This document shows, piece after piece, positions 16,801 to 57,122 of a stretch of DNA of 64,000 nucleotides; the first letter of the stretch is position 1; each line of letters starts with the position of its first letter. The notes beneath the pieces are model-generated. The model searched no databases and was not told the DNA's origin. It saw only the letters and a program-made list of their open reading frames with translations. The DNA lies in NCBI GenBank assembly GCA_032622095.1, contig CP136068.1, positions 122,083,989 through 122,147,988 of the forward strand, in the 5' to 3' direction. The position numbers and the translations under genes were made by a program. Origin of the DNA: Siphonodentalium dalli. Taxonomy: Eukaryota; Mollusca; Scaphopoda; Gadilida; Siphonodentaliidae.

Positions 16801-19800
16801 TTTTAAGGATAATGAAAGTCAAAGCTGTAATCGTCTATATATCCCCTGAATAGATTGGAAATTTCCCATTTCGAAATATCGGCTCCTCAGTTTCGTTTAT
16901 TAGTATATGATGAATAGACTGGAGTCTGAACAAGGCAAGCTGCTAAAATCAACCTTATCGAGTCGTTGCATTAATCAAATCCCACGAGTGTTCCTTTACA
17001 AATTTTCAGCACACTTATATACATTATTGAATTGCAATTGGCCACCACAACCGCAAGCTTATCATACATGTAGGTGTAAGAATCACAGGTAATAAACACC
17101 TACTGAGGTAAGACACATTATATTAACCCTTTACCCAACAGAAGGGCCCTGTGCCAATGCATTCTCTTATATATGCGAGTCGACCATAGGTCGCCTCGCA
17201 TATATAAGAGAATGCATTGGCTTAACACATTAAAAATTATAAAATTGTTAAAGAATGTAAGAAAAAATGGTAAAAAGTGTTAAAAAAAGATTGTTTTTAG
17301 GCCAATGCATTCTCTTATATATGCGAGGCGACCTATGGTCGACTCGCATATATAAGATAATGCATTGGCACAGGGCATAACTGTAACCATCACAATGTGG
17401 TCAATGAGCCGGTTCCAATGATATCCATATTTGTATGGTTTTATTGAGACAGACCGAAGATATTTTAGGCTGTTGAAGCTTTATTTGGCCGGTTTTGGCC
17501 GGTTTGTTGGGTAAAGGGTTAAGGTGCCCAATCAGGATAGACAATAGATCACACCGACATCAACAAAATTACAAAATGTAATGAATCAATGTTAGTATGT
17601 TACCAATGACAAACATGAAATAAATGTTTGTCTTTATGTGTACATGTATTTGCCCAAACCTACAGATTAGATGACAGCTGTAGGGTATAGGCGGGTGTTG
17701 AAGATCAAATCGGCAGACTCATGTGCAATGCGGGAGAATAAACGGGTCTGTCGGGATGCAAATTACCGGTACTAGGAAATACAGATTCAAAATTATTTGA
17801 CGGAGCCTATGTCGGTATAGGGAAACCCTGCATGTGCCATGTGTGTGAGTATGGAAGGCAAGCCGATATGTCGCCCAAAGAAGCAGTGAGCTTTGAATAC
17901 CATGATGATGATAAACCAATTTATCTTACAATATGTATTATATCAATCATAAAAAATTACAATTTTATCCCTTTCATGACGATAGGCCGCCTCGCATATA
18001 TAACAGAATGCATTCGCCTAACAATTTTTTTTTAATTTTGATCATTTTTAAAAATATTATTTATAATTTTTTCTTACATTCTTTAATCTTACATTCTATA
18101 AAAAAAAAATTATTATATTCTTTAAGAATTTTTATCATTTGTTTTCATTATTTCTTACATTTTTTAACAATTATAAAAAATAATATAAAATTTGTTAGGC
18201 TAATGCATTCTCTTGTATATGCAAAGCGATCTATGGTTGACTCGCATATATAAGAGAATGTATTGGCACAGGTTTTCGCAAAAATTCAGGAAGCTCCCAT
18301 CATGAAATGGTTAACAAGGTATTGTGGTATGGAAATGATGTTAAAAAATAAGAGTATCTGTCCATTGTTGTAAAGAAATTGAACGGTCAAATCGAGGCTA
18401 TTAGAAATGAAAGGAGTCTCAACATTTTCTTGTTACATACTAACTGGCTATTTTGCAAAGTTCAAATTTTTCAAAATTGGTCAACTCTGAGACGAGATTA
18501 GAAATGATATGCAGAACTATTCTTTGTGAAGGACCAAAGCAACATAAAACAACATTAATATTACTCAACCATATTTGCAATAATCTGGCAGACATAAACA
18601 CTCAATACTGATTCACCTTTTCATTTTTACCTCCAAAACAATAGTTCTAAACATTGCTACCAAAAAACTAAATTATGCAACGAAAAATGTTTGATTTTTT
18701 ATATTCTTGCATAGTCATGATTTCAATCGCAGACAGAGTATACGCCCTAGTTGGATTCCCAAGCTAGTTAATATTTCAGTGCATTTTTTATGAACTCTCA
18801 AATGACCGCCTCGAAATTCATATTTTGTGAAAAGTGCTCTAGCTCGACTCCTTAACCACAGCAGAATTATGGGTAACTTTTCAGGATTTAGTCGGAAATA
18901 TGGCTTGTTGCCATTCATAGGAAAGCTGAGAGCTTTCCGATGAATGGCAACAAGCCATATTTCCGACTAAATCCTGAAAAGTTACCCATAATTCTGATGT
19001 GGTTAAGAAGTTGATTACTTAGGGGATTACTGTATGCTTTTGGTTAAGGCCTAAAAAAAAATACATTTGTTTCCGCTAACGAGCTGAAAAAAATTAGGGT
19101 AGGTAGGTAGGCTTAACTTCTTTTTTTTTGTTAACTTTTTTTTTTTCAGTATCTTTAAAAATAACTGTATAATACTTGTCAATAACCCAAACTATGCACT
19201 TCTTAGCCCCCAATCAGGTTAACCCAAATGACAGAGGAACTAGAAACTCCAATTCAATCTTGCATATGCTTCAATATTTACATATATACTAGTCTATATA
19301 CTAATATAGTCTTTGATAATCCTAATATTTCTCATATGGTCTGGCGACAACTGGAGTCAGTCCAGCACCACTGCACTGTCACATATTGGAGTGACCGTCT
19401 TGTACCGATATCTTAATGATGGCTTCACAACCCCACCTTCTCCTCCGCATTCAGTGAAGGATCTAGGTATTTTTTGTGGACACCTATTTTTAGGCAATGA
19501 TATGCCAAAGGCATAACCTGAAGGCCTGAGTGGAGGAAGGTTTGGGAAGGGTGACCACCTAATGATGGTGGGGGTTCGCCCCCTGGAAAAATTTTGAAAA
19601 TCCATTGCATTTAGAGCTAATCTAGGGCATTTTGAGTCAGAATTTTGAATTTTACTGAGAGGTCAATTCGATCAAGTTTCTCGAGCGTAACTTTGAAATT
19701 TTTTATGTATGTATGGGATTTGAAATGCTTATAAGTTATTATCAGGTATCTTTTGGTTCCATGGATCATGCTTATCCGGCTTGAAATGAGACTTGCCATT

Positions 19801-22800: not shown

Positions 22801-25800
22801 GCTAAAGGAAGCCGTTCACACTGAACTATATGGATTAGTATGCAAGCCCAGGAGGAGGCACGAGCAATAAAGTTAATAGCCAAATTTTGGAGGGAATGCA
22901 TTCTTCTAAAACAGATTGTACCTAAATATGAACTCTTTAATGAATCTGTTATGATTAGTTACGTGAAATAACTCATATAATTAGAGTGCTATATTGCTCA
23001 AACATGTACCCCCCCTTGTTTTTGGAAGCAACATCCCAGGTGGTGCCATTCAATTCAGAAATGCGAGCGAACCGAGCAATTCTCTGTTCTTCATCCGTCA
23101 GTTCTAAGAATCCAGCCTTAGCGACATAACGACCTGCACTGGAGGAGGCCCACTCCAAAGATGGCAAGACAACCCACATTAAGAGTTAACTAACTGCTGT
23201 TCACCAATGCAAATGGCAGATAACCTGATGCCCAATCTGTGGCACAGGGATCAAATGGAGAGCCCATTAGCCCAAATGGGTTAGACAACTATAAGCGAGT
23301 CAAGCCATCGGATCAGAGGGAGCCCCCACCATCGCATGCTGCAGGTGGTCATGCCCAAGCTAATATCCTGGCCAAGCTGGAGGGTGGGGAGAGGTCATTT
23401 TTCTCTGATCCCTTCACGGAGGAGTGGCAGGCAAGGCCGCATTTTGTCGTTAAGACGAGCATGACCAGGGGGACGCGGCGCTTTACCTCATGGGTACGGC
23501 CCCTGCCCTACGCTTAAGCTGCCGGAGGCCCATCTGCCGGTGTCGATTTGTAGGCACGCGATTTGGCAGCTTTAGCGCCCAGAACCGCTGGCGTCTGGTG
23601 GGGGACAAATGTCCTGGAGGTCCCAAGTACCCCGTCTACTCCACCAGACGTTTCCCACAGACTGATTGGCCGCGAATGCGTAATCGGGGGAGCGTGAACT
23701 GGTCCTGCCCTTAGAACAGTTATCACACGTTCACATGTCCCTGAGGTACCTATGTATCACAATATACACATTGCGTATATATATATATAAAATGATATAA
23801 TATATATATCCGGGGGATATATTAAGTTTTCCTCATGAGACCATGTCAGAAGGCCCATCAATCTAATGGGCGGAGCCAGATCACAGCTCCCTGTCATGAT
23901 CCAACGTATCACTAAATATAGATATACAACCCCACAGAGAACATGTCTCACAAGATATCATTGCAGAAACCCGGTGACACAAATCTTTCGCATATATAGA
24001 TATATAAAATGATATAAATAGATATATCATGGTGATATATAAGTCATCATGAGATCATGTCAGAAGACCCTACTAAAGCTGCGCCCAACAATCCAATGGT
24101 CGGAGCCCGAGCAGAGGTCCCTGGCACAATCCAATGTATCATTAAAGATATATATATAGCCCCTCAGAGAACATGACTAACAGCCATGAGCATCAGGAGC
24201 GCATGGCCGAACACCACAGGTGACCAGAGCATCCAATGAGAAAGCAAACCGCTACTCTCAGGTGCCAAACAATAGTGTCGGTACGAGTATTAATTTTGGA
24301 GAAATTTCCCAACGAGCACCATCCTTTGGAATGGAGACAGACAGCAAAATGTGCAATCACAAGTATTATGTTCAGCCTAAATCCACACACATTACTATTA
24401 TTATAAAGACACAAAAAAAACATCACAAAATTGGAGCCCATGTACCGTAAAAGGAAATGAGAAATATTGGATATCTACAAATACATATTGAAGGTAAAAC
24501 CACTTAAAGCCTTCATGACTGTTGTTGTTGCATATCCAGATGTATTTACCTTTTATAATACATACACTGTCAAACACCAGAAGTCCGTTGTTATTGTTGA
24601 TAAAAAAACTAAGATCATGCATACATTTCATCGTTCATTACTTTTTTATTTGAACTCTTATACATGTTACAATATAAAAAATGAAAGCAGATATTTAAGA
24701 CGGATAATCAATGATATGATTGTTATCTTATTGAATATTGAAAATGGCTAATATATCAATTGGAGCCATGAACTGTCGTGGGTTGTCGTCTGACCATGTA
24801 AAGCGTAGAGATTTATTTAATAGATGTAGAGCTAGGTACGATATTTCTTTGTTAATTGATACGCATTCAAGTAAAGAAACAGAAAAAAGATGGAGGATGG
24901 AATGGGGTTATGAAGCCATTTTTTCTTCATTTTCCAGTGCTAAAAGAGGGGTGGCCATTATTTTTAAAAATTCAATCCAGTATGAAATACACGAAATAGT
25001 GGCTGATGACGGTGGAAATTACATCATTCTTGATATTACAATCCAACATCAGAGACTTAGCCTATGTGCTGTATATGGGCCGAACGAGGACAGCCCAATG
25101 TTTTTTGAAAAACTTTTTAACAAAATTGACAAATTGGAAAACTCCTCTATAATAATTGCAGGAGACTGGAATGTACCTCAAGACTATTCAATAGATACAA
25201 TACATTATAAACAGAAAAACAACACAAAATCAAATGAAAAAATGAAGTTCTGGCAAATGAGGTTAGATTTACACGATACATGGAGGCTTCATAACCCAGG
25301 CATTAAACGATACAGTTGGAGGGGCCCAGGAAGTAAAATGGCTAGGCTCGACTACTTCCTGGTCTCCTCTGATCTTCAGTCTTTCATAAAAAAATCTGAT
25401 ATACATATTAGTTATAAATCAGACCATTCTCCAGTGAGCTTAACTATACAATTTGTGAGTCATCCCAGGGGCAGAGGGACATGGAAATTTAACAACAGTT
25501 TATTGAGAGACAAAAAGTATATAGAATTAGTTAAAACTATAATTGCTGAGGTAGTAGACCAATATGTGAATAATAACACTGAAAATATACGCATTGGGGA
25601 GGAAAATCTTTTTAAAATCAATGATCAACTATTTTGGGAAACCCTAAAAATTATGATTCGTGGCCCAACTATTGCATACTCTTCAAATTTGAAAAAGGGA
25701 AGAAATGAATCTGAAAATAAACTTGAGACAGAAATTTCAAGGCTTTCGGAAATACTCGACAATGGTGATGAATCGGTCGCTGTAAAAATAGATAAATTAA

Positions 25801-28800
25801 AATCAGAGCTAATCGAATTAAGAGACAAGAAAATACAGGGAATAATTCTGAGAACAAAAGCAAAATGGAAAGTAGAAGGGGAAAAATCAACCAAATACTT
25901 TTGCAATTTAGAAAAAAGAAGCTACACTGAAAAAACTATTGCCAAACTAATTAAAAGTGATGGATCTGAAATAACCGAACTTTCTGACATAATTGAAGAA
26001 CAACACAATTTTTACAAAAATCTATATGAATCAAAGATTGAACCAACAGCTGGAGATGAAGAAAATAATTTTCTTGATGTTGAAAACCCTTTTCTGAATT
26101 TCTTGGATACGCAAGAAACTGAATCCTTGGAGGGACAACTAACTGAATACGAATGCACAGCATCATTAAAAAAGATAAAAAATGAAAAATCCCCAGGATC
26201 AGATGGATATACAGCAGAATTCTACAAATTTTTCTGGAAAGATCTGGGGCAATTTGTTGTTAACTCATTGAACTATGGTTTTCGTACACAAAAATTATCA
26301 GTCACGCAAAGATGTGGAATTATAACATGTCTGCCAAAACCCAATAAACCTAAAGAATACATTAAAAATTGGAGGCCTATTTCGCTTCTCAATGTTGATG
26401 TTAAAATTGGATCAACAGTTATTGCTAATCGGGTAAAGAAAGTCCTCCCAAAACTTATTTCAGATTCACAACTTGGATTTCTAGCAGGGCGTTACATTGG
26501 GGAATCAACAAGGCTTACATTTGATTTATTAGAAAAGTGCGAGCAAAGAGATATACCTGGATTACTAGTACTACTTGATTTTGAAAAAGCTTTTGACTCC
26601 TTAGAATGGAGTTATTTAGAAAATTGTTTAAAATTTTACAAATTTGGACCAGATATCATCGGTTGGGTAAAAACCTTTTATTCAGATATTTTCAGCTATA
26701 TTGTCAATAACGGAAACCTATCTAACAAGATAGATATACATAGAGGGGTAAGACAAGGTGACCCACTTTCTCCTTACCTGTTTATTTTAGCGGTAGAAAC
26801 TCTTAGCGCATCTTTAAAAAATAATATAGATATAAACGGGATAAAAATTAACAAAACTGAATACATGGTCTCACAATATGCAGATGACATGAACCTCTTC
26901 CTCAGGAATGACTCACACTCATTAAACGAAGCCCTTAATACAGTCCGAAATTTCGCAAAGATAACAGGACTAAAAGCAAACTTCCAAAAAACTCAAGTCT
27001 TATGGATTGGATCGAAACGGGGCTGTGGTGAAGAAATTCCAACAGAAGAAAATATACTATGGAATCACTCAAATTCGGTCACTATACTTGGTATTGAATT
27101 CAACCTCTTCAATGACGACTACATTGAAAATAATTACAAGACAAAAATAAAAAAGCTAGAAAATCTACTGAATGACTGGTCCTTCAGACAACTAAGTCTT
27201 ACTGGAAAAACAACAGTAATAAAGACTCTTGCACTTCCAATGTTAATTCACTGTCTATCAGTACTACCTCCCCCTTCAAAAGACACATCTCTAAAAATCC
27301 AACAAATCTTTTATCGCTTTTTATGGTCTGGAAAAAAAGATAAAATTAAACGTAATGTTATAATAAATGAAATTGAAAACGGAGGCTTGAAGTTTCCACA
27401 TATTGACTCGTTTGCAAATGCATTAAAAATGACCTGGATACAAAAATTGCTAGACACTTCCAATAATGCCAGCTGGAAAAATATAATTTTAGATGACTTG
27501 GAGCCCTTTGGTGGTCCAAAAGTTTGGTTCTTTCAAAATGAAGCACTGACTATTATGGCAAATAAAGTTAATCCATTTTGGAAAAGCGTTATACAGGCTT
27601 GGAGTTTGGTAGATCAAGATATCAGCACAGCCCCACAAGACATCCAATCCCAATCCATTTATTGGAATAAATATATAAAAATAGACAATCATATGCTCTT
27701 AAACACTAAATGGATAAAGCAGGGTGTATTTTTTATAAATGACTTGATGAAAGACGATGGTGGACTCTTAGATTATCCATCATTCTGTAGCACTTATAAT
27801 TTACAAATTCCTTTCACACACTATCAAGGACTGTTGAATGCGATACCATCCCAATGGAGAGCATGTTTGAGAAATAGTGAGAAACTTGAATCAATTAAAA
27901 AAGAAAAAATAGAAATTCTCGGGAATGCCTTAACACCATGTAAGATTTTTTACCCAATTATTCTTAGACAATATGCTGAAACACCTTCCCACATACAAAA
28001 AAAATGGTCTAATAGACTTGGAATAGCTTTATGTGATTTGGATTGGAAACAAATATATAGGAACCCATATCATATCACAGATGATACTGGCCTGATAAGT
28101 TTTCAATACAAAATTAATCAAGACATACTTTATACAAATTCAAAATTATTCAAGTGTAAACTGTCAGAAACAGAATTATGCTCTTTTTGTGGGAACACGA
28201 AAGAAACAGTTATACATCTCTTTTGGGATTGCCCCATTTCAAAATCAGTTCTACTTCAACTCCAACATAAGTTAAAAGAAAAGTGTGATATTACATTCGA
28301 ATTAAAACCAGAGTATACTGTCCTAGGTATGCATGGAGATATACATCCCAATGATACCCTTGATATCTGTACAATGCTGTATAGAAAATTTATATACTCA
28401 TGTAAGATGAGGGCTACCAACCCAACTATAAATGGACTTCTTGAATTTTTTAAATATTATAAAAGAATTGAAACTCTAAACACATATTCCTTGAATGATA
28501 GAAGTAAAAAATATGGGGAAAGATGGGAAGCTCTGGAAGCAATTCTTAGCAATTGAAAACAAGGCAATATCTACTTCTCAGTGAAGCTATTACTCAAACA
28601 TGCTCATAATATGGATTAAATAACTTCCCCCCACGACAGTTCAGAAATAAGCGATCATAAGCGATCATAAGTATCCACGTTTCACAAATACACTGATTAT
28701 CCACAAAAAAAAAAAAATTTACTTTTTTATATTTTGTTACTTTATATCTACAAATTACATGCAATCATATATACATGTATGTTCATATATACCTTAAAAT

Positions 28801-31800
28801 ATTTGAAAATGTTATACAATACTGAATAAGACTAATGTCACATGATGAAATTTAAAAAATGATCTGAATAAAAAAATATTAAAACAAAAAAAAAACTATT
28901 ATTAGGCCATCACGACCACTAGGCACCTGAGAGCAGTCCGCGTTCCCAGCGGAATACCCACCGCGATCCGATTCTAAGAAATGAAGGTGCGCCTTCTACA
29001 ACCGAAATCAGTTCAAATGATGTACAATGTAGTCAGATGATGAACACAGGTAAATTTTCACGGTCACCATACGGAATATTCAGGTCTGAGCCTCTGCCCC
29101 CCCAAACATGCAGCAGAACGACCTAGGTGTGTGATAGGTCAGTTAGTGTGAAGCATGCAGCAAACTAGGGGAAGACCCGCTCTAAAAATGGCTCCCCTAG
29201 GAAGGAAACGAATGAAATTATCATCCTCCTAGTAAAGGATACACATCCCTTTTATAATGTTGTTTTATTTTAATATGAAGAGCCAAGATAGAGAGGAACT
29301 CCCCCTACCTAAGTGGTCCTGCTTATGGCATGTTTAAGGAAGAGAGGACAAACCCAGCATAGACCGAAATGCGCAGAGTTGGCAGCATGGTTTCAGTCCC
29401 TTACGATCGGGCATCTGGTGCCATGGGGATGGGATCCACTCGTACGGGGTGGTCCCCTGCCTGCGTCTTAGGAAAGGTCGGTAATGCTGGTCAATGAGCT
29501 TCCTCGAAAGCTTAGCTGGACAGCGCAAACGTATTTGCTGTTTTATTGTCTATGTGCCAGATAATCAAATTGATATGGGCAATAGAAGTATGAAGAGCCA
29601 TGCTGATGGACTCTTGTCGGAAAGGCTATTGGCAGTGGTCGTGGGACATGTGACAATATAAATGCTTTCCATGTAAATATGCTTCATTCGTGTGTGAAGT
29701 CTATTCGCCATATCAACGGTATGAAAGGTCGGGGACACGTATATATTTGAAAATTCATTGAGACTCCAGCTAGTCCATGAATACCTTCAAAACTATGGGG
29801 TGCCGTTCCTCTATTTATCCCCTATTTAGAGATATCTCCAATTCATTTGGAGATATCTCCAATTCATTAGGAGATATCTCCAATTCATTAAGAGATATCT
29901 CCAATTGTTATGGAGATATCTCCAATTGCCAAGGAGATATCTCTTAATTCGCGAGGAGATATCTCTAAATCACAAGCAGATATCTCTTAATTCACGAGGA
30001 GATATCTCTTAGCCACGAGGAGATATCTCCTAGGCTGCTGAATTAAGAGATATCTCCTCGTTCACTAAGAGATATCTCCAAATGACTAAGAGATATCTCT
30101 TCGCGAATTAAGAGATATCTCCAATTCATTAGCAGATATCTCTTAATTCGCGAGGAGATATCTCTTAGTGGCATGATTTAGAGATATCTCTTAATTCGCG
30201 AGGAGATATCTCTAAATCGCTAGGAGATATCTCTTAATTCACGAGGAGATATCTCTTAGCCACGAGGAGATATCTCTTAGTACTGCTGAATTGGAGATAT
30301 CTCTTCGTGATCGAGGAGATATCTCTTATTCAGTTTTGGGTCAGAGAACATTAAGAATTTCTCCCCCAGCAAGTGTTTTTTTTTGCCAGCCATTGTGAAT
30401 ATTTTATGGGTTCATTTCGTTATGGCAGAAGGGCGAGTACACGATATATTGGTGCATGTGCAACAGAACCTATTAAATGGACAGAGTATAATGATTTGGA
30501 CTGTAGCAGAATATATATTTTATTTACCGCTTGGATTTGGGGAGAATATCATTAGTCCGTCTATATAAGGCAGATGCTGTGTTCGTATCATCGTTGGGCT
30601 CCACGGTCAATTTGGCTTCCCATATGCATGCAGGTGTTTGATGATCCAAATCAATTATATCATATTGTCAAATAACTTTTTCACTAGATCCATGATTATA
30701 TAACGAAAACATTATATTTATGCATGGCAATGTTGCCTTACAGCTTTGCCATCAACACCAGTTCTCAGTTCACAAAATCCATGTTTATTCTTCACAAATC
30801 AGTAGTGCATCGACGGCATCTTTGGTCCCTGAATTATTCTCCACGTAATTGACATAGCTAAAATAACCAAGGGACATCTGGCGACATAAGAGTTTCTGTG
30901 GCATCACGTTCCCTACAGGGCCTGTATACATGTTCTCGTGTTTTTTGCATGCACCTATACATTGTATCTATAGTACTATATCACTTGACACTATAGTAAC
31001 ACTGTTCGAATTTTGTGAATCCAGTCGTATTTTTCGATTTGATAACACATCATTTGACAGTCATTTTCGTTTTGTCTGACGTCTATACAAATATGTCATA
31101 ATGTGACAGGAATTGGGTCCGGGAACTCCTTAGTGGGGCTAAGGACACGCACAAAATACTTGCTGCATATATATGTCCAATTTTAACGGTATCAACAGTT
31201 AATTTCTCACTTCAGCAACAACTAATTAATCCATAAATACATATTTTATCTGTTTGATTTTAGCTTAGGAAATGGCGTCAAAGTTACATTTTCCAAGTGA
31301 TTTTCTCCACATTTCTTACTGCCATTGTTTTATGGTATGACATGTTTACATTGCGCAAGGTAGGGCAACGTATTCTAATACCCGGAGAATGTCCGACCCT
31401 CTGTTTATAAACAACGGCACGTGCTCTCGCTGTTCTATAAATAGCATCATTGAGTGCTATTGAGCTAGGGATCCTTCATTTTAAGCCTGTTCCAGTCAAC
31501 ACTGTCGAATTGGAGATATCTCTTAGCGGCCGAAGAGATATTTCTTAATTCAGCAGTACTAAGAGATATCTCCTCGTGGCTAAGAGATATCTCCTCGCTA
31601 ATTAAGAGATATCTCTAAATCACTAAGAGATATCTCCTCGCGAATTAAGAGATATCTCTAAATCATACCACTAAGAGATATCTCCTCGTGAATTAAGAGA
31701 TATCTGCTAATGAATTGGAGATATCTCTTAATTCGCGAGGAGATATCTCTTAGTGATTTAGAGATATCTCTTAATTCGCGAGGAGATATCTCCTCGATCA

Positions 31801-34800
31801 TGTCGATTAAGAGATATCTCTAAATTGCTAGCAGATATCTCTTAATTCGCGAGGAGATATCTCTAAATCGCTAGGAGATATCTCTTAATTCACGAGGAGA
31901 TATCTCTTAGCCACGAGGAGATATCTGCAAATAGGGGATAAATAGAGGAACGGCGCCCCATACAAAACACCTACCATGCCCTTTATGAACAATGCATGCT
32001 GTATTGGATGTACAGCCTGTTCTTGTACCAAGCTCACATTTGATATGGTTACTTGTCATAAATAATGTCTCCCCCCCACCTTCCTCGTCTTGGAATACCA
32101 CTGCTATTATATCGTTATTCATTGGGGAACGTCATCCAGGCCACGGTCGCCAGTTATTGACAGTGGGCCTCAATTATGTTTGTATTCCGGAAGGAGACAC
32201 CATTTAGTCGAGAAACAACCCAGCAATTTTGAAAGGATGGGTTAATTTTGCCAAATTTGGATACAATTCAGAATAATAACTAAAATCTGGAATTGAGACA
32301 ATAGTGAAACTGTCATCACGATTAATTTTAGTGTCATGCTTGCAATCATTAAATGCTAGCAGTTCAAAATTTGACAGTGAAGTTGAAGCACTGTACGAGA
32401 ATCGAATCATGTACTCAACAGAATTCTGACTCCTGTCAGATGTCAATCCCTGTCTGAAATTAATGACACTAACGAATCTTAGTACCACGACAGTCGTTAT
32501 TTTTCTGATATTGATAAACTGTAGTCAACTTCAAGCGTCGACAAACACATCTAAATCATAGGAGACATGTGTGACAGTATTGAAACAGAAAACACAAAGT
32601 ATTTTGTGAAAGCATGTTGTTTTGATGAGTTCTAGTGACTTCAGTAGTGTTCTGCAACATGCACCCACCTAGGTGTGTACATGGGTCAGCCATTAAGTTT
32701 TAATTGTCCACACCCGATCGCACAGCGTAGTGCACCCACGACAACATACCTGAACAAGTGTTGTAATGGGGAAAGTCGGCATTTGCATTCGGATTTTATT
32801 CAGTAATCTCGAATGGGACTTGTTAGCCTGACAAACTTGGTATCGGACCGAGTTCTGATTTCTGTAAGAATACCCTGACCAGGGTGCGATCCCCGGTACG
32901 CTAGCACATGGCTGAGATTGTTACATTGAAGGTGATGCTCCGTTACGAGAATCAAACCATGAACAGAATTATAACACTTGTCCAATATCAATCTCTGTCA
33001 ATTTATTAAAGTAATAATGACCCTTCTGTTATTCTTAGGTATCTGTTTTTACATTGATAAACCAAGATGTAATCAACTTTAAGTTCAAATGTGACCAACA
33101 CATCTGGATCAGTTGTATTGAACCATAAAACAACAAAGTATTATGAGAAAGAATATTGTTCATAACATTATGATAGATAGCGTCAGTAGCGATGGTAATT
33201 ATTGCTAAATAAATGTCCACGCGTAAATAAATTCCCACGAAATTAGGAGACTTCCGGTAGCGAATCACGTGGCATTTTTTATATCTGACAAATTATATCA
33301 TACCTTATAGGTTCTATAATAATTACATAGATGAATTGCTCACAATAATCTATGCGCCTCGTAAGGCCTTGAAATGGCGGCTGATTATGGCGAAATGTCG
33401 AATTTCATATTCGAAAATTTTTAAGTCCACCGCCTGTTCGAAAACACGGAAAATTGTATTGTTTGAAGCGAAACGGTCCGTGAATTCGAAACAATAATTC
33501 TAAAAACTAACGCGTAGGCGACCAGTAATTATTGTATCGATAAATTGAATTTGTTGTCAAGATGTTAAACGACAAATTCGGAACAATACTCCCTTTAGAT
33601 CCGTTCGGTTTCGTAGCAGAAAATAAACTGACGAGATTCAATCGGTTATATTGGGACTGCGCATGCGTGACTGATTCCGAGCAAGCCACTGAAGACCGTG
33701 AGGGATCGTAGGCGACCACAAAAAGTTAACCCCTTTTCTACTATGGTTTACAAACGCAGGACAAATATCCATATAGTTCAGTGTGAACGGCTTCCTTTAG
33801 CGGAAATATAGGGTGTGCCCTTTGTAGAATGAGGTCCCCAGAGGGTAAATTTAGTGATGCTATCCCGCGCAGTGTGGTTAGCATCACCAAATTCACCCTC
33901 TGGGGACTTCATTCGCCTAGGCCTCATCTTCTGGGAAGTATCTATAGTCTCAAATTAACATTGGTTTTAGTTACATTTTTCCTTCTGGGAAGGTTCTATA
34001 TCCCCTACTTTGCAGAATATAAAATGCATAATCGAGGTGACTGGGGAACTTCAATTGAATGAGGAACCCAGAGGATGAATTTGGTGATGCTAGCCCACCA
34101 TTCGGAACAGCCTCACTAAATTCAACCTCTGGGGACATCATTCTGCAAATGTCAGACACGCTATTTCAAGGCTTGACTGACTAACATATGGTCTGCAGTA
34201 TCAGTACAAATCATCATAGCAACACTATCTCAATGAAACAATGTAGAATAAAATGCATGGCTTTTAACCCTTTACCCAACAAACCGGCCAAAACCGGCCA
34301 AATAAAGCTTCAACAGCCTAAAATATCTTCGGTCTGTCTCAATAGAACCATACAAATATGGATATCATTGGAACCGGCTCCTTGACCACATTGTGATAGT
34401 TACAGTTATGCCCTGTGCCAATGCATTCTCTTATATATGCGAGTCGACCATAGGTCGCCTCGCATATATAAGAGAATGCATTGGCCTAAAAAAACAACTT
34501 TTTTTAACACTTTTTCTTACATTCTTTAACAATTTTATAATTTGTAATGTGTTAAGCCAATGTATTCTCTTATATATGCGAGGCGACCTATGGTCGACTC
34601 GCATATATAAGAGAATGCATTGGCACAGGGCCCTTCTGTTGGGTAAAGGGTTAACGATGTCAACTGTGCAATGTTTCAAATATTGGGTAACTTTCCCAAA
34701 ATTCCAATGAAATGACTAATGTGGAAAGTCCAAAACCAAGAATTCATTGTAAATGAATTGTAAAGTTGATAATTCATAAATTGGTGAGAATTAAGTAAAT

Positions 34801-37800
34801 TTATCAGCCATTACCCTCTTACCTTTTCAAAATGAGAGTGAAACTGCCAAAATAGGTCAGCAACATCATCAACAGGTAGGCCAGTGGTATATGATAGTCA
34901 CCAAAGGAACCGTAGCTGCCATAAAATATCCATAACTGAGTCAGCACACCCTGTACATAATCAAAAGAATAAGCACAGTTTAAAGGCATTCGAAATGTGA
35001 ATAGAAAGTTCGCCAATCGACTAATAAATACCCAAAATAATCGACTCCTTAACCACAGAAGAATTATGGGTAATTTTTCAGGATTTAGTCGGAAATTTGG
35101 CTTGTTGCCATTCATCGGAAAGCTCTTACTGTAGCAACTAGTGCAAATGATACCATACCAGTATTTATTAATTAGATTTGACATTTTTGACCAGAATGGC
35201 CTGTTATTGAACTATGTGATTATTGCTTCAATTTGCCCTTAAACTGAGTAGTATTATTTGACAACATCACCAATCCGAGTAATATCATTTTACAACATCA
35301 CAAATCCGAGTATTATGGTTTTACGAGATGCGGTAAATCTATGTCACTGCTAAATATGTGATGGTATCGATTTTTGTGATGTCACTCATTTTAAAGTGAT
35401 CCATCAACCCCCCCCCCCCCCCCCCCCCTCACCTGCTGATTTGTTGTCTTTGGCACACTCACCTCAGGGGAACTACTCCCTCCATCCTATATTTCGTGAA
35501 TAGTACAGTAATGCCCTAAATAAAAGACTCCTTAACCACAGCAGAATTATGGATAATTTGTCAGGATCTAGTCAGAAATATGGCTTGTTACCATTAATTG
35601 GAAAGCTCTCAGTGACAGCTTTCTGATGAATTGCAATAAGCCATATTTCCGACTAAATCCTGAAAATTTACCCATAATTCTGCTGTGGTTAAGGGGTCAA
35701 TTATTAAGGGCATTACTGTACTATTCACAAAATATTGGATGGAGGGAGTAGTTCCCCCGAAGTGAGTGTGCCAAAGAATCATCAAATCAGCAGTTGGGGG
35801 GGGGGGGGGGGGGGGGGGGGTGATGGATCACTTGAGTGTCCGTCCCAAGCCAACGACTTACAGCAACTCATATTTATATCACGAAGCAATTCTTACCTTT
35901 CCATCAATTAGATTGATGAACTTGAATGGTTTGGATAATCTCTCGTAATTGTAGCTGATAGCTGTCGGGAGGATGACAAACGCCAGCCACACACATGACA
36001 AGAAAAGATTCAGAACAAGAATCCAGCGTATGAATACAAACATGGCGCCGATTCCTGATCCAAAGTTACCTGAAATAAAACATTTCCTCTAAATATGACA
36101 AATTATTTATCAAAAGCTGTTGAGCAACATGTCCACTAATAAAGGTGGCTTGTTTGGATTCTTGTACCGTATTAATCACACTGGAGATCCGTGAACTCGA
36201 TTACCGGTCAAGAACTCGAACAACGGTTAAGCACGACGGACGGTGAGTGTAATCTTTATGATATATACCCATGTGATGTGCCATAATTCAACTATTTTCT
36301 CAGTTCATTGTGTATATAGATAATGGTTCTGTGACATGATCGTTAAAACACCAATGTTTAATCAAATTTGTTTGTATATGGGCTGGTAAATGAAAAATAT
36401 TCCTCCGACTCGTCTAAACTTTCTGGTTCAATGGATCTTCACACGGTTGCCTGTTGACCTAGATAAAAACTGGCACCCATATCGGATAGCACAAACATCC
36501 CCCACGATATTCACATGCCCAGCGTTTCGCGTGAAAGCGGGTCACCGACAAAAACTGACATAATCAACTCGAGTGTTGAAGCTCGGAATGAACTCGCACA
36601 ACGGTTACTCAAAACTGGTCTAAACCACGCACAACGGTTATCGATACCACGCGCATAGGTTAAGCTACCGATATTCAGTGCTGCAAAGTAAATCATGCTG
36701 ACGAAATGTGATGGCTAAATGGTCTATGTTAGTTGAAACACCATCTATAACATATTGCATGTATTTTAGTGCGCAATCAACCGCCTATTGTTGTTATAAA
36801 CAATGCAATTTACATTAATTTTAATTTCTGTTTTTGAACAATGTTGCCATGATTTAATTTGAATTATGTTTCGTTCAGGCGTTCGCATACATTGTCTAAT
36901 TTCCTAATATTATATGTATTTACAGATACAGCTGTGATGATGCCACAAGATGGTGATTTCATAGACATTGGCACCAACCCACCAACCGTGCAGAATATAC
37001 AATACAACAGACCACCCGTTTCTCATGTCATGAGTGTGGCAAAAGCTATCAATGGAAGAGTTCGTTGCGTCGACATAAGATCAGTGCTGGATGTTTCCTT
37101 TCCAGATAGCCAATCCTTCCAGTGTTGTCATACAAAGAGTAAAATCCAAGATGGCTGCTGGCGGTCATGTTTTTTGGCCGAATGACCCAAAAATGACTCT
37201 TTCCCATCTACATGTCATTGTTAACATCCATGAAATTTTTTATGATGATCCGACCAAAGGTACGACCTGTAGCCCGTGTCAAAGGATTTAGTCATGCAAA
37301 GAGTAAAATCTAAGATGGCTGCCGGTGGCCATGTTTTTTGGCCGAATGACCCCAAAATTACTCGTTCCCATCTACATGTCAATATTAACATCCATGACAA
37401 ATTTCATGACAATAAAACGAACAGTACGGCCTGTAGCCCGTGCTAATGGATTGAATTTTGAAATGCAAGATGGCCACTGGCGGCCATGTTTTTTTTCCGA
37501 ATGACCCCAAAATGACTCGTTCCCATCTACATGTCAATGTCAACATCCATGACAAATTTCATAATAATCGGACCAAAGGTACGAACTGTAGCCCGTGCTA
37601 AAGGAAATTGTTGACGCATCACGCACACACACATGGACGATGGATACCAAGCCATGGCAATAGCTCAAACTTTACAAAGTAAAGTTGAGCTAAAAAGTAT
37701 GGTGTTATATCTGAATTTCTATAGAAGGTTTAAAATTCATCAGAGAATTATTTTCCACAGAAATTCAATTTGTCCCCTTAATGACTAACTATAGCTACTC

Positions 37801-40800
37801 AAATTATAGAACTTAAATAGTAGCATGCGTTGAAAACTGGCAACACAAAGTTATTTACTGCAAAAGTCACTTCTTAACCCTTTACCCAACAAAATGGCCA
37901 AAAACGCCCAAATAAAGCTTCAACAGCCTAAAATATCTTCGGTCTGTCTCAATAACACCATACAAATATGGATATCATTGGAACCGGTTCATTGACCACA
38001 TTGTGATGGTTACAGTTATGCCCTGTGACCCGCCATATCAAATACAGTCGGAAGTCGGGATTTTTTTTACCCTGTGCCAATGCATTCTCTTATATATGTG
38101 AGTCGACCATAGGTCGCCTCGCATATATAAGAGAATGCATTGGCTTACAAAAATTTTATCATGTTTTTTAAATAAATGTTTCTTACAATTTTTAGGACAT
38201 AAAATAAAAAAAACATCCATTATCCTGCAGGGAGCCCCACACATATATAGAAGCACATAGAAGAGTGTTGTCTGCTCATGTTTGTCTGGGGCTCTGTATG
38301 GGTGAAATTATAAAATTGTTAAAGAATACAAGAACAAATTATTAAAATTGTAAAAAATTGTTAAGCCAATACATTCTCTTATATATGCGAGGCGACCTAT
38401 GGTCGACTCGCATATATAAGAGAATGTATTGGCACAGGGTAAAAAAATCCCGACTTCCGACTGGATTTGATATGGCGGGTCACATATTAGTGATGGTTAT
38501 TTCAATTTTTCTTTACATTGACATGTTTCCAGTATTTTGCAAATTGAGTATCTGTAGTCCTTAATATGACACGTTGATGCTATATGGTAGAACCTCAGAC
38601 AGATGATGGACTTATCATTAGCAAAGATTTGCAATTAAATTAAATTAAATGATCATTGGCCCAGTGTGGAATTTATTCACGAAGAGAAAAACAACAAAAA
38701 TTAGCTTGATATGCTAAGTCTAGACTCACGGGAAGGGGTGCGAGGGAAGAAAGGCAAGCTCTTGAAGATTTTAAACACACATTTCTCTGATTCCACTCAT
38801 TTATTACTTAAGAAATAAATGTTGATTTGTTGCGTTCCAAGGAGTATGGATGCAAGTTGGTCTGACATTTTGTGTGGGACTTGAAAATGGTTCCATACAT
38901 AATGAAAGTAGTTCAACTTGGAGAAGGGATAATGACATACATTACAGTCATTGGAGCAATAAAATGCAGAAAGTTTAAATGTTTAAAGGGGTACTGTACA
39001 CCAATTTCAATAAATTCCCGGTGACAATAGCGATCTAATATGAATATTATATTATAAAATAACTAATTTGAGTCGATGATGTCTACTCAAAACGTTCTGG
39101 TTAATAACAGGCTATCGTAAAAGTAAAATTGAATTATTTAATATAAATTCATTTATGACTGGAGTCATAAAATGGTGAATTATGCCATTACGAGTTACCG
39201 TTCTTGAAATCGCATCTGCTGCGTGTCTTTTATTGACGACCGTTCGCGAACATTATTGAGTTGCAAACAAAACATGTTACCTGCAAAAGGAAGGCCCGTT
39301 ATAAACGATTCGGAAAAAAAGGAGAAAGAAACAAGAGTCATAAAGCATCAAGTACTTTTATAGGGAGTGAGATTGTTCGATGGAAGAGATTGAATGCATC
39401 AATCAAAGCTGTGAGCAATGAACTTCCGGTTCTTCCTGAGACCTGCGTCTTCTCCGGTGAAGGTCAAAAACATGGCGCGTAGTTTGAAATCGTAATATTT
39501 TTCTTTCCAAGATCAATGTGTACAGTACCCCTTTAAGCATTAGCAGAAGTCAACCTGAAGAGCTATATGACGTTTGAGATCAATTGGATGTAAAATGCTG
39601 GCTGTAGGGTGTGCTGAAGTATTTAGTCATGCAAAGATTAAAATGCAAAAAGGCTGTCGGCAGCCATTTTTTTTATCGAACATCTTTCAAATTCGATACC
39701 CCCATCTAGGAGTGATCCTGAAGATGCTTGTAAATTTTCAATATACATGTATTTCTCCAATAAATGTGGGCTGCATGATGTGGTGATATTTCAAATGTGA
39801 AATCCAAGATGGTCACTGGAGGCCATGTTTTTTAAACAAATATGGGAAATATTGATGGCTCCCATCTAGAGGTCAACCTGAACATCTAGATAAAGTTTGA
39901 TGATGATTGGATAAGGGATGTGGCATGTAGGATGTGCCGAAGGATTTAGTCATGCAAAGAGTAAAATTCAAGAAGGCCGCTGGCAGCATGTTTCTCAACG
40001 AAATTTGGAAAACTTTGATGGCTCCCATGTAGGGTCACTTCAAGGATGCACATGAAGTTTGGTGACAATTGGAAGAGGGATGTGCCCTCTAGGGTGCACC
40101 AAAGAATTTAGTCATGGATAGAGTAAAATCAAAATGTTTTTCATAAAATCGGGCTGTAGGGTGTGCCGGTGGTCATGTTTTTTAACAAACTATTGGAAAA
40201 CAAGAGGTGGCATCAGAGATGCTGTGTCTCGTTTTCAGTGGCTTACCGCCGGTGGCTACCGCCAATTGGTGTGCATCAGTATCGGTAGACTAATTAATAG
40301 GTAAAATCGAAAAATGACTAATTAAGGGCCATAACTCCATCAAATTTTATCGGGCCAGGCTGGTTTTCGAACTCGTCCGAAATATTCTTGGCAAGTATGT
40401 CTATTCCAAATTTTAAACAAATCGGAGGACGTTTGTTGAAGTTATCGCGCTAACGAGCTAAAAATTCACGAAAAAATGACTAATTAAGGGCCATAACTCT
40501 ATCAAATTTTATTGGGCCAGGCTGGTTTTCGAACTCGTCCAGGATATTATTGGAAGACACTTATATACCAAATTTTAGTTGAATCGGATGACGTTTGTTG
40601 AAGTTATCACGCTAACGAGCTCAAAATTCGTACAAAATGACTACTTAAGGACCATAACTCTATCAAATTTTATCGGACCGGGCCGGTTTTCTAACTCGTC
40701 CGAGGTATTCTTGGGAGACACCTATATATCAAAATTTCAATCAAATAGGATGATGTTTGTTAAATTATCGCGCTAACGAGCTGAAAATTTGTGAAAAAAT

Positions 40801-43800
40801 GACTAATTAAGGGCCATAACTCTATCAAATTTTATCGGACCTGGCCGGTTTTCGAACTCGACCGAGATATTCTTAGGAGACACCTATAAACAAAATTTCA
40901 ATCAAATCGGATAACGTTTGTTGAAGTTATCGCGCTAACAAGCTGAAAATTCGTGAAAAATGACTAATTAAGGGCCATAACTCTATCAAATTTTATCGGA
41001 CCAGGCCGGTTTTCAAACTCCTCAGAGATATTCTTGGGAGACACCTATATACCAAATTTCAATCAAATCGGATAACGTTTGTTGAAGTTATCGCGCTAAC
41101 AAGCTGAAAATTCGTGAAAAATGACTAATTAAGGGCCATAACTCTATCAAATTTTATCGGACCTGGCCGGTTTTCGAACTCGACCGAGATATTCTTGGGA
41201 TACACCTATATAACAAATTTCAATCAAATCGGATAACGTTTGTTGAAGTTATCGCGCTAACGAGCTCAAAATTCGTGAAAAATTACTAATTAAGGGCCAT
41301 AACTCTATCAAATTTTATCGGACCAGGCCGGTTTTCGAACTCATCCGAGATATTCTTGGGAGACACCTATATACCAAATTTCAATCAAATCGGATAACGT
41401 TTGTTGAAGTTATCGCGCTAACGAGCTGAAAATTTGTGAAAAATTACTAATTAAGGGCCATAACTCTATCAAATTTTATCGGACGAGGCCGGTTTTCGAA
41501 CTCATCCGAGATATTCTTGGGAGACACCTATATACCAAATTTCAATCAAATCGGATAACGTTTGTTGAAGTTATCGCGCTAACGATCTGAAAATTCGTGA
41601 AAAATGACAAATTAAGGGCCATAACTCTATCAAATTTTATCGGACCAGGCCGGTTTTCGAACTCATCCGAGATATTCTTGGGAGACACCTATATACCAAA
41701 TTTCCTGAGACCTGCGTCTTCTCCGGTGAAGGTCAAAAACATGGCGCGTAGTTTGAAATCGTAATATTTTTCTTTCCAAGATCAATGTGTACAGTACCCC
41801 TTTAAGCATTAGCAGAAGTCAACCTGAAGAGCTATATGACGTTTGAGATCAATTGGATGTAAAATGCTGGCTGTAGGGTGTGCTGAAGTATTTAGTCATG
41901 CAAAGATTAAAATGCAAAAAGGCTGTCGGCAGCCATTTTTTTTATCGAACATCTTTCAAATTCGATACCCCCATCTAGGAGTGATCCTGAAGATGCTTGT
42001 AAATTTTCAATATACATGTATTTCTCCAATAAATGTGGGCTGCATGATGTGGTGATATTTCAAATGTGAAATCCAAGATGGTCACTGGAGGCCATGTTTT
42101 TTAAACAAATATGGGAAATATTGATGGCTCCCATCTAGAGGTCAACCTGAACATCTAGATAAAGTTTGATGATGATTGGATAAGGGATGTGGCAAGTAGG
42201 ATGTGCCGAAGGATTTAGTCATGCAAAGAGTAAAATTCAAGAAGGCCGCTGGCAGCATGTTTCTCAACGAAATTTGGAAAACTTTGATGGCTCCCATGTA
42301 GGGTCACTTCAAGGATGCACATGAAGTTTGGTGACAATTGGAAGAGGGATGTGCCCTCTAGGGTGCACCAAAGAATTTAGTCATGGATAGAGTAAAATCA
42401 AAATGTTTTTCATAAAATCGGGCTGTAGGGTGTGCCGGTGGTCATGTTTTTTAACAAACTATTGGAAAACAAGAGGTGGCATCAGAGATGCTGTGTCTCG
42501 TTTTCAGTGGCTTACCGCCGGTGGCTACCGCCAATTGGTGTGCATCAGTATCGGTAGACTAATTAATAGGTAAAATCGAAAAATGACTAATTAAGGGCCA
42601 TAACTCCATCAAATTTTATCGGGCCAGGCTGGTTTTCGAACTCGTCCGAAATATTCTTGGCAAGTATGTCTATTCCAAATTTTAAACAAATCGGAGGACG
42701 TTTGTTGAAGTTATCGCGCTAACGAGCTAAAAATTCACGAAAAAATGACTAATTAAGGGCCATAACTCTATCAAATTTTATTGGGCCAGGCTGGTTTTCG
42801 AACTCGTCCAGGATATTATTGGAAGACACTTATATACCAAATTTTAGTTGAATCGGATGACGTTTGTTGAAGTTATCACGCTAACGAGCTCAAAATTCGT
42901 ACAAAATGACTACTTAAGGACCATAACTCTATCAAATTTTATCGGACCGGGCCGGTTTTCTAACTCGTCCGAGGTATTCTTGGGAGACACCTATATATCA
43001 AAATTTCAATCAAATAGGATGATGTTTGTTAAATTATCGCGCTAACGAGCTGAAAATTTGTGAAAAAATGACTAATTAAGGGCCATAACTCTATCAAATT
43101 TTATCGGACCTGGCCGGTTTTCGAACTCGACCGAGATATTCTTAGGAGACACCTATAAACAAAATTTCAATCAAATCGGATAACGTTTGTTGAAGTTATC
43201 GCGCTAACGAGCTGAAAATTCGTGAAAAATGACTAATTAAGGGCCATAACTCTATCAAATTTTATCGGACCAGGCCGGTTTTCAAACTCCTCCGAGATAT
43301 TCTTGGGAGACACCTATATACCAAATTTCAATCAAATCGGATAACGTTTGTTGAAGTTATCGCGCTAACAAGCTGAAAATTCGTGAAAAATGACTAATTA
43401 AGGGCCATAACTCTATAAAATTTTATCGGACCTGGCCGGTTTTCGAACTCGACCGAGATATTCTTGGGATACACCTATATACCAAATTTCAATCAAATCG
43501 GATAACGTTTGTTAAAGTTATCGCGCTAACGAGCTCAAAATTCGTGAAAAATTACTAATTAAGGGCCATAACTCTATCAAATTTTATCGGACCAGGCCGG
43601 TTTTCGAACTCATCCGAGATATTCTTGGGAGACACCTATATACCAAATTTCAATCAAATCGGATAACGTTTGTTGAAGTTATCGCGCTAACGAGCTGAAA
43701 ATTTGTGAAAAATTACTAATTAAGGGCCATAACTCTATCAAATTTTTTCGGACGAGGCCGGTTTTCGAACTCATCCGAGATATTCTTGGGAGACACCTAT

Positions 43801-46800
43801 ATACCAAATTTCAATCAAATCGGATAACGTTTGTTGAAGTTATCGCGCTAACGATCTGAAAATTCGTGAAAAATGACAAATTAAGGGCCATAACTCTATC
43901 AAATTTTATCGGACCAGGCCGGTTTTCGAACTCATCCGAGATATTCTTGGGAGACACCTATATACCAAATTTCAATCAAATCGGATAACGTTTGTTGAAG
44001 TTATCGCGCTAACGAGCTGAAAATTCAAAGGGCCATAACTCTGTAATAAATGTGCGGACGAACCCGATTTTTTGTCTGCAGCTTACGTGCATGGATATGT
44101 ACTCACACACCAAAAAAAACACGCCGCCCGCCCCGCCCGCCCGTCCGCCGCCCCTCATCAAACTATAAGTCGAGTTTTGGAAAAAAACTCGACTAAAAAT
44201 TGATGGCTCCCATCTAGTATCTAGAGGTCACTCCGAACATCCACATGAATTTTGGTTACAATTGGATGAGGGATGTGGTAGGGCCCTGCGAACCTTATAA
44301 TTTAGGTCGAACCGAACCTTGAAACCGAATCATCGTCTTGGTTTCGAATCGAACCGAATCTCGAACCACGAACCCAATTACCGACCGTGTCATTGAAGAG
44401 AGTCCAAGCGACGTACTCATAATACTAGTAGCCAGTTAGAACGTATGTGGATCATTATAATAGTACAATCAACGTGTTATATACAAATTTATCGTATACG
44501 ATATAAGATAATTACATGTTGAAGAATTATTTTATATTGGAGATGAATGACAATCCGATAAAACGTTGATTTTATGTTCCGTTTATGTCCATACATTATA
44601 TTACATAACCCCGATTAAAACAGATATCCGATTATCATTCTCCGTATATACCCGCGTCCGCTCACTGAGCATCACTCATGAAAAATCATAACTTATAACT
44701 TATTCTAACAGTAAGTGAGACAGATGTCTGATTGAATCATCGGTCAAGCTTCCAATAGTAAATATGTACAATGTAAACAACGCGATAAACGACGCATTGA
44801 ACTCCTAACACACTGACAACATGAACGCGCCACGTGACATAACTCGGTAACTATTAACAGACTCGTCAATCTGTAACTGCGACAACACATGACAAAGATC
44901 AAAGCGTGCCGACGTCGCGTTGTAGCAATTAAGTGTCATAAGACAAAGCACATCGGGTTACATAATCATGTCAATCATTTATGCTGATAAACAATGGCCA
45001 CACCTTCTCCTCACTGTGATTGGTTGACTCCAATTGTTGACACAGAAGGCTGCCGGAAATACCTATTTACTTTCAGCCAGTTTACGGAATTCAAAAAAGC
45101 TTGTTCGATCTGTATCCATCAATAATCATAACTTATTGTTTTGTTTGTTAGGTATAATTATGTCTATTAGTAAAGTTATATGGAGAATAAAACAAACTTT
45201 GACGAGGTAGAACTTTGACTGAGATAGAAATGTTATAGTTTTACTAATTAATTATCACGAATTTGACATGTCCGACTGGACCGTTTAGCGGGAGCGGAAT
45301 AAAGTTATGCCAAAAGACCCGTTCAATGAAATATCACCCAGTTACCCCGCCCGAGTAATGATCAAAGTAATTATGTCCAATGTAAACATAAAATCATAGT
45401 ATCACACAGTTGTATGTAAACCAATTAATATACGGTACCGTATATAATCAATAAACAATTCCCAGTACGCAAAATTTGCCCATTTTGCGGGACTAAAGAA
45501 AAGGTTCGATATAAACGAATCCCGTCTAAGGTTTCGAACCGGACCGAATCATCACAGCGGTTTCGAACCGAACCGAACCTCGAACGGTTCGCAGGGCCCT
45601 AGGATGTGGCCTGTAGGGTGTGCTAAAGTAAATTTTTGACATACGGATGTCAAGTTGAGCTAAAAATGTCAGACCAACTTGCATCCATACTCCATGGAAT
45701 GCAACAAAATCAACATCCATTTCTTATATTTACACTCAAATTGTAGATTAAAAGAGCAGTTAGCACCCATTTTGAACAATAATCTTGTATGGCATTGTAA
45801 GTTGTGTTCATACAATATGAAAACAAGCCTGTACACGACATCACATGATGTGATTTCAATCAACCGATGTCCTCCATTCAAGATCCACAATATGAATGTA
45901 CAGTAATGCCCTAAGTAATCGACTCCTTAACCACAGCAGAATTATGGGTAATTTTTTCAGGATTTAGTCGGAAATATGGCTTATTGCCATTCTTCGGAAA
46001 GCTCTCACTGAGAGCTTTCCGATGAATGGCAACAAGCCAAATTTCCGACTAAATCCTGAAAAAATTACCCATAATTCTGCTGTGGTTAAGGAGTCGATTA
46101 TTTAGGGCATTACTGTATGTAGGAGTGTAAATATTAATGAAATGACTTGCAGATCAATTGGAGTCATTGGGTTTTGACTGGCAGAATAATTAAACAATTA
46201 ATAAAGGGGTTGTTTAATTACTCTGCCGGTCAAAACCAATGACACCAATCGATCTGCAAGTCATTCCTTATAATCATATACCAGTATATTTTGCTAGAAC
46301 ATTAATCATTTGAACAACTTTTCAAAACAATTATAAGGAACATATTGTTCCAATTCCAACACAGTCTCCCAATAACAACATGCAATGAGCGTGTGCACAT
46401 GATCAGCTTCAAGTGACGTAGGCGTTTCTGATGTTCATCAACCAATAACTGAAGTATCAACTTCTGTTATTGGTGAATGAACATCGGAAACGTTCATGTA
46501 AACCGTATGGTGAAATGTACTGATTCCAACAGCTGCTAATTCTGTGAATGTATGTAGGAATGTAAATAATACTCTCTGTGGTAATGAAAAGGGAGAAAGA
46601 ACATAATAAGACTTACTTTCAATTTCTCTTATTTGTTCGCGAAGCAAGAAGAATTCAGAGTCCTTGTTCTTCCACCTCTTGTAAGTTACCTGAAAAAAAC
46701 AACATCATGAGCAAAGTAAAAAGCAGATAACAATTTTGTTTTCCGAAAGACAGATACATGGCAAGGATGGCTCTGTTAGTTTGCAAAATAATATATAATA

Positions 46801-55805: not shown

Positions 55806-55945
55806 TAATTATGGGTAATTTTCAAGATTTAGTTGGAAATATGGCTTATTGCCATTCATCGGAAAGCTCTTCCCGAGAGCTTTCCGATGACTGGCAACAA
55901 GCCATATTTGCGACTAAATCCTGAAAAATTACCCATAATTCTGTG
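55806..55945. mobile_element. Foldback MITE family A, copy 8 (both ends truncated)
   Basis: Starts CATAATTATGGGTAATTTTC and ends AATTACCCATAATTCTG. Lacks the TA-CAGTAATGCCC ends, but the central hairpin with GGAAAGCTCTTCCCGAGAGC is intact. Confidence 0.8.
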
Positions 55946-56831
55946 GTTTATATTAAAATAAGAGTGCATATCGTAACTTTGTCTCACTTCTGTGCAAAAA
56001 AAAATTGAAAGCTAGAAAATTACTATGATGGCAAGATGAAGTAAATTTAATAGTGATGAATTGGAATTAAATTGAAATAATGTTCAATCTATTTGCACTT
56101 ATTCAGTATACTTCAATTTAAAAGTAACGCTCAGCAGCACTCAGTGCAATTTAATTACGCATCATTGTAATTCAATTGGCCATTAGTGTAATTGAATTAT
56201 TCTTCACAGCAATTAATTACTATGATGACATTTGTAAAATTAGTTATCCACAAAATGGCTACTCTAGTGTGCCAATAAACAAACATGTACGTTTATTAAT
56301 TATATGAACAAATTCCACCCTACACGATGCTTATTCGGGCCTGCCCTTTTTTTTTTTAAATTGATGGCTCGATAGTGGAGTCCATAACGGCTGCCGGTGC
56401 AAATAAAATACCAGAATATCGGTTCTCAAAGTGGCAGTCGCGAGACAAACATCTTAATATTCTTACAAGAAAATGTGGAATTGTTGTTATTACGTTGTTG
56501 CACTTCCGGGAATTTGAAAAATTATTGCCTTTTTTTGTGAGAATTGATAACATGCTTCCACCCAGTCTGGAGTAAACTACATACCCACATATAAAAAATA
56601 GTGGTCAGTATCAGTATGAATCTGAGTGTATGTTTACATAGACTGGCTTCCACCCTGTACTTCTATTCCGCCCTGCACTATTATTAATTTTAGGCAGTTT
56701 TCACCCTGTACTAATATTCTGCCCAGAACTTCTATTTTGCACACAAGAGTAACCCCATCCAAGTTTATTGAAATAACCGCACATCCAGAGTTGATTTATT
56801 CAGTGTCTGTTCTGGCAAAGTAGGAGAAGTA
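55946..56831. other. Non-coding, repeat fragments
   Basis: 56270-56350 is related in inverse direction to 53314-53420. 56645-56760 repeats CACCCTGTACT-like and TTCTATTCCGCCC-like words. No exon recognised; the TMC 5' exon may be here or further right. Confidence 0.4.
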
Positions 56832-57044
56832 CAGTAATGCCCTAAATAATCGACTGCTTTACCACAGCAGAATTATGGGTAACTTTTCAGGATTTAGTCG
56901 GAAATATGGCTTGTTGCCATTCATCGGAAAGCTCTCACGGAGAGCTTTCCGATGAATGGCAACAAGCCATATTTCCGACTAAATCCTGAAAAGTTACCCA
57001 TAATTCTGCTGTGGTTAAGCAGTCGATTATTTAGGGCATTACTG
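56832..57044. mobile_element. Foldback MITE family A, copy 9
   Basis: 213 bp, TA-CAGTAATGCCCTAAATAA ... TTTAGGGCATTACTG-TA. Both arms carry GACTGCTT / AAGCAGTC instead of GACTCCTT / AAGGAGTC. Confidence 0.9.
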
Positions 57045-57122
57045 TATTGGGTAGTAATGGTTAACTTCGCGGCTTCAGCTCAGTTGGCTTCTCTTCCTTT
57101 TACAATGGATTACAATTTTTTA

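Follow-up and report, generated by a model that had tools for sequence, protein, structure and literature searches.

What kind of sequence are the two arrays of GATATC-containing palindromic repeats found in the 64-kb stretch of DNA analysed here (the window), and how could they have come to stand in mirrored and direct copies around a common middle? The original prediction placed a foldback element at positions 29794–31962, closed by inverted ends and a perfect CAAAAC duplication, and recognised no described family for it. We examined its ends, arms and middle region, and compared it with known transposons and with prokaryotic and viral sequences.

The inserted element and its ends

The inserted element spans 29794–31962 (2169 bp), which are the very bases proposed originally. 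Its left terminal inverted repeat (TIR) is 34 bp long (29794–29827, forward strand) and starts with TATGGGG; it pairs with a right TIR on the reverse strand (31929–31962) that ends in CCCCATA. The two TIRs are identical at 33 of 34 positions and share the sequence TATGGGG(T/C)GCCGTTCCTCTATTTATCCCCTATTT, with one mismatch between both ends. The hexanucleotide CAAAAC at 29788–29793 recurs as a perfect 6-bp copy at 31963–31968, each flush with the adjoining TIR end, so that both the inverted ends and the duplication proposed earlier are real. The arrays of repeat cores start 1 bp inside the TIRs on both sides. The identification of 29794–31962 as an insertion of foldback type, bordered by a target-site duplication (TSD), is well supported.

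The window contains 1838 pairs of TAYGG..CCRTA motifs 100–10,000 bp apart, two of which, one being 29794–31962, have an identical 6-mer outside both ends. Equal flanking 6-mers occurred by coincidence in 14 of 36,760 shifted flank pairs, a rate that corresponds to about 0.7 chance matches among 1838 pairs, so that about one is expected. The end sequences separate the two cases: 29 of 30 end bases match in 29794–31962, compared with 10 of 30 in the other pair with equal 6-mers. In 22 pairs of the window, 20 or more of 30 end bases match, and only 29794–31962 among these has equal flanking 6-mers. The inverted identity of its ends stops at the motif, with 4 of 30 bases matching outward. For 16 of the other 21 pairs the inverted match continues outward (at least 19 of 30), which identifies them as inner positions of other dispersed repeats; the remaining five (three starting at 4494 and two at 55810) match at 8–14 of 30 bases outward and have unequal flanking 6-mers.

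Between the arms lies a middle region of about 1.2 kb (30341–31500) with a G+C content of 38% and no recognised coding sequence. Its longest open stretch has 75 codons, and none of the 21 middle open stretches with 35 codons or more had a Pfam match at E 0.01, as expected for a non-autonomous copy. No second copy of the middle, and no transposase, autonomous relative or second copy of the element, was found within the 64-kb window, and Rfam gave no match anywhere in it.

The window is rich in eukaryotic repeats, satellites included, and resembles the DNA of a marine invertebrate, perhaps a mollusc; one of its satellite motifs had no match in the literature searched. A 1323-bp element at 44279–45601, whose ends we take to be hAT-like, has an 8-bp duplication (GGATGTGG) and inverted ends that both carry TAGGGCCCTGCGAACC. 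Another element, of 1848 bp (50611–52458), has a 4-bp GTAT duplication; its inverted ends do not differ in the 40 bp compared, and the left one adjoins a GTAT microsatellite. A dispersed, self-complementary family of about 218 bp occurs at 3501–3717, 6341–6558, 18844–19034, 35503–35721, 45898–46118 and 56829–57046, in addition to fragments, and five of these six copies have the left end TACAGTAATGCCCTAA. A non-LTR retrotransposon is represented by an open frame of 1273 codons (24735–28556) that matches endonuclease and reverse transcriptase; pieces of LTR-type RNase H and integrase are also present, together with weak gag and protease matches below the cut-off. A 2272-bp tandem duplication with 99.7% identity (39433–43973) overlaps an array of an approximately 161-bp satellite (40309–44026) and is either a recent duplication or an assembly artefact. 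There is also an uninterrupted run of 72 C residues at 700–771 and a run of 25 G residues at 35796–35820.

Cores, spacers and copied segments of the arms

The left arm (29829–30325, forward strand) comprises 23 GAGATATCTC-type cores separated by spacers of 11–17 bp, and the right arm (31513–31927, reverse strand) 19 cores separated by spacers of 11–18 bp. These numbers agree with the units counted originally, provided that the degenerate right-arm core GAGATATTTC is included; strict GATATC counts are 23 on the left and 18 on the right. The perfect palindrome GAGATATCTC is present in 36 of the 42 cores, and the 64-kb window has no perfect site outside the element. Every unit had been described as palindromic, which is accurate for the 10-bp cores, most of them perfect, and does not extend to the spacers: palindromic spacers were considered and rejected, as their self-complementarity is not above that of shuffled spacers. 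The first five spacers at the left end are 11 bp long and are followed mostly by an alternation of 11 and 12 bp, which gives rise to a 21/22-bp unit and a 43-bp dimer; a few spacers in the arms measure 16–18 bp. Helical phasing of the cores is weak, with a vector strength of 0.39 at 10.5 bp in each arm.

Folded as single-stranded DNA, the left arm with its TIR reached a z-score of −17.5 and the right arm with its TIR one of −21.5 versus shuffled sequences, none of 100 shuffles reaching the native value in either case. The right arm folds nearly entirely upon itself and contains an exact internal inverted repeat of 59 bp (31600–31658 with 31718–31776). No exact internal inverted repeat of at least 25 bp was found in the left arm, which holds imperfect ones (99 nt at 83%).

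Comparison of the arms with each other revealed both mirrored and direct copies. The left inner block (30047–30327, forward strand) is mirrored in the right inner block (31513–31792), with 90.4% identity in inverted orientation over 280 columns and an inverted pair within the blocks that reaches 93% over 246 nt; aligned directly, the same two blocks share 80.7% over 218 columns. Ten consecutive inner spacers occur in mirror order, with a score reached by none of 2000 shuffles, and the test for direct unit order between the arms is also extreme (1 of 2000 shuffles). For the outer blocks, identity between left and right is 71.9% inverted over 135 columns and 93.2% direct over 117. Among the exact matches between the arms, the longest is in direct orientation: a 94-bp segment of the left inner arm (30182–30275, forward strand) reappears in the right outer block (31833–31926, forward strand) as a direct, not mirrored, copy, and none of 1000 unit-order shuffles contained a match of this length. 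The longest exact inverted match between the arms, 51 bp, is not unusual, since 155 of 1000 unit-order shuffles reached it.

Mirror order had originally been assigned to the outer units, which is incorrect, as the mirroring resides in the inner ones. The accompanying suggestion that the arms are copied from each other finds support in the ten mirror-ordered inner spacers, but the right outer block is a direct copy of left-arm sequence. Copying of segments has thus taken place in direct and in inverted orientation, both from arm to arm and inside the right arm.

We searched for similar sequences beyond the window. Three spaced cores were found in no stretch of IMG/VR and in two stretches of prokaryote genomes, both of them short local arrays in bacterial metagenome-assembled genomes (MAGs). 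In these arrays, located at L040 7498–7640 and L041 7093–7146 in a Bacteroidales and a Pseudomonadales MAG, the GAGATATCTC-like palindromes are spaced 21–23 bp apart. No sign of the element at 29794–31962 was seen around them in the 701 and 501 bases inspected. The two bacterial arrays are likely independent of the element and convergent, and arrays of the same palindrome in bacteria suggest that this form can arise independently. A degenerate version of the first 16 bp of the TIR matched 39 IMG/VR stretches, which we attribute to chance, as none of them continues the TIR (at best 6 of the next 18 bases). A blastn search of the element against phages gave no match at E 0.001. When the core sequence was looked up in the literature, the titles among the matches listed pointed to unrelated work, and its occurrence in the available text of a mussel paper is as part of a primer.

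Family assignment and alternative explanations

The absence of a described family from the original prediction turned out to be too pessimistic, because the termini and the duplication fit IS3EU/GingerRoot. According to the accessible part of the IS481EU paper (PMC10045372), TA..TA termini are constant among complete IS3EU families, whose TSDs are usually 6 bp long, and GingerRoot families have 6-bp TSDs and mostly TA..TA, occasionally TG..CA, termini. A set of IS3EU elements from seven rust-fungus species is described, in the available text of the TET/JBP paper (PMC12730594), as having TIRs of more than 30 bp, TAYGG..CCRTA ends and 6-bp TSDs. The element shares all of these features: its ends, TATGGGG..CCCCATA, conform to TA..TA and to the rust-fungus TAYGG..CCRTA, its TIRs are 34 bp long with 33 identical positions, and CAAAAC flanks the one copy on both sides. 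It also has the long inverted tandem-repeat arms around a middle that define a foldback element, the inner blocks being inverted and the outer right block direct. We regard 29794–31962 as probably a non-autonomous, cut-and-paste DNA transposon of the IS3EU/GingerRoot type with foldback architecture. As this assignment derives from the ends and duplication of a single copy, the element is best called IS3EU-type rather than a proven member.

It differs from the described IS3EU and GingerRoot elements in that a transposase is absent here and in its palindromic-repeat foldback arms, which go unmentioned in the available portions of the two papers (PMC10045372, PMC12730594). No foldback IS3EU element was found in the literature searched, a body of text that apparently excludes Repbase Reports. 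The two terms "IS3EU" and "foldback" coincide there in one paper only, on oyster satellites (PMC8268682), in the available part of which "IS3EU" is used two times to label satellites in a table and "foldback" is found once, in the title of a reference.

The ends could also be read as TGGGG..CCCCA bounded by TA on either side, as in a TIR element with a TA dinucleotide duplication (of Tc1/mariner-like or other TA-inserting type), CAAAAC being coincidental. Such an origin is unlikely, as it requires a chance 6-bp direct repeat in exactly the right place, an event of the frequency given above for shifted flank pairs. About equally improbable is that the foldback element belongs to a different superfamily (Mutator-like, the affiliation suggested for Tetris, or P-like, that of Galileo) and has a duplication of atypical length. 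The attraction of this alternative lies in the long repetitive arms around a middle, which, in the available text of the respective papers, are typical of Tetris (PMC4079207) and present in Galileo (PMC3573991); the duplications given there, 8–10 bp for Tetris and 7 bp for Galileo, do not agree with the 6 bp found here in combination with TAYGG..CCRTA.

The repeats are tandem and were detected as 21/22- and 43-bp arrays, as would be expected of ordinary minisatellites or satellites that happen to be inverted, with no transposon involved. We consider this very unlikely, given that on either side 1 bp separates the array from matched 34-bp TIRs, which the 6-bp duplication adjoins without a gap, and that no perfect core is present in the window outside the element. 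Least probable of all, and scarcely to be expected, is an assembly artefact in which the arms are partly mis-assembled or collapsed. Self-complementary repeat arrays are difficult to sequence, and the 72-C run and the 2272-bp tandem copy are other suspect features of the window, but the arms differ in unit order and content, so that neither merely copies the other, and the ends and the duplication are clean.

Proposed mechanism and comparison with other foldback elements

For an IS3EU/GingerRoot-type transposon with foldback arms, mobility would depend on a DDE transposase of IS3EU type supplied from another place in the genome. This enzyme would bind the TIRs, excise the element and insert it with a 6-bp stagger, moving it in trans as a passenger. 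The arms may have grown and been reshuffled through template switching, gene conversion or unequal exchange. Palindromic cores give every segment enclosed by a pair of them direct as well as inverted homology at its borders, and such a segment could thereby be duplicated, deleted or flipped; the presence of both mirrored and direct copies in the arms might be explained by these two homologies. The least certain step is that the core array may provide extra binding sites for a dimeric protein, which could be the transposase or a factor of the host; a comparable role has been proposed for the repeats in Galileo arms. The form of the cores is that expected for the site of a dimeric protein, but the non-palindromic spacers and weak helical phasing weaken the interpretation as a binding array. 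Tentatively, and with considerable doubt, we propose a foldback lineage within IS3EU, in which the arms would be self-reshuffling arrays of putative dimeric-protein-binding palindromes that recruit transposase or a host factor, and in which the cores would be the points at which segments are flipped and copied, the arms being rebuilt continually in both orientations. Copying in direct and in inverted orientation can still be read from the arms, which makes them suited to testing how palindromic repeats drive arm turnover.

In the Foldback (FB) element of Drosophila, the arms consist, as here, of short tandem repeats on either side of a loop; FB differs from the element at 29794–31962 in its 9-bp TSD and in its repeats. 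Tetris of Drosophila virilis is, in the available text of its description (PMC4079207), likewise a non-autonomous foldback element with tandem repeats inside long TIRs and a variable middle without apparent coding capacity; it differs in its 220-bp repeats, TIRs of up to 1,735 bp, TSD of 8–10 bp and suggested affiliation to Mutator. Galileo, as far as the available part of its description goes (PMC3573991), also has long TIRs, and in one subfamily these contain tandem repeats, the number of which is unequal between the arms of a copy. Recombination and conversion have been proposed for it, and for several superfamilies, Galileo's included, it has been suggested that repeats within the TIRs hold secondary transposase sites (PMC3573991; cited in the available text of PMC4079207). 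In contrast to the element described here, Galileo belongs to the P superfamily, with a 7-bp TSD, repeats of about 210 bp and copies that contain transposase sequence. Foldback architecture has thus been described, in the available parts of these two papers, in elements assigned to Mutator-like and P-type transposons (PMC4079207, PMC3573991). Its occurrence together with IS3EU ends would be a further, independent example, in support of long repetitive arms being a convergent trait.
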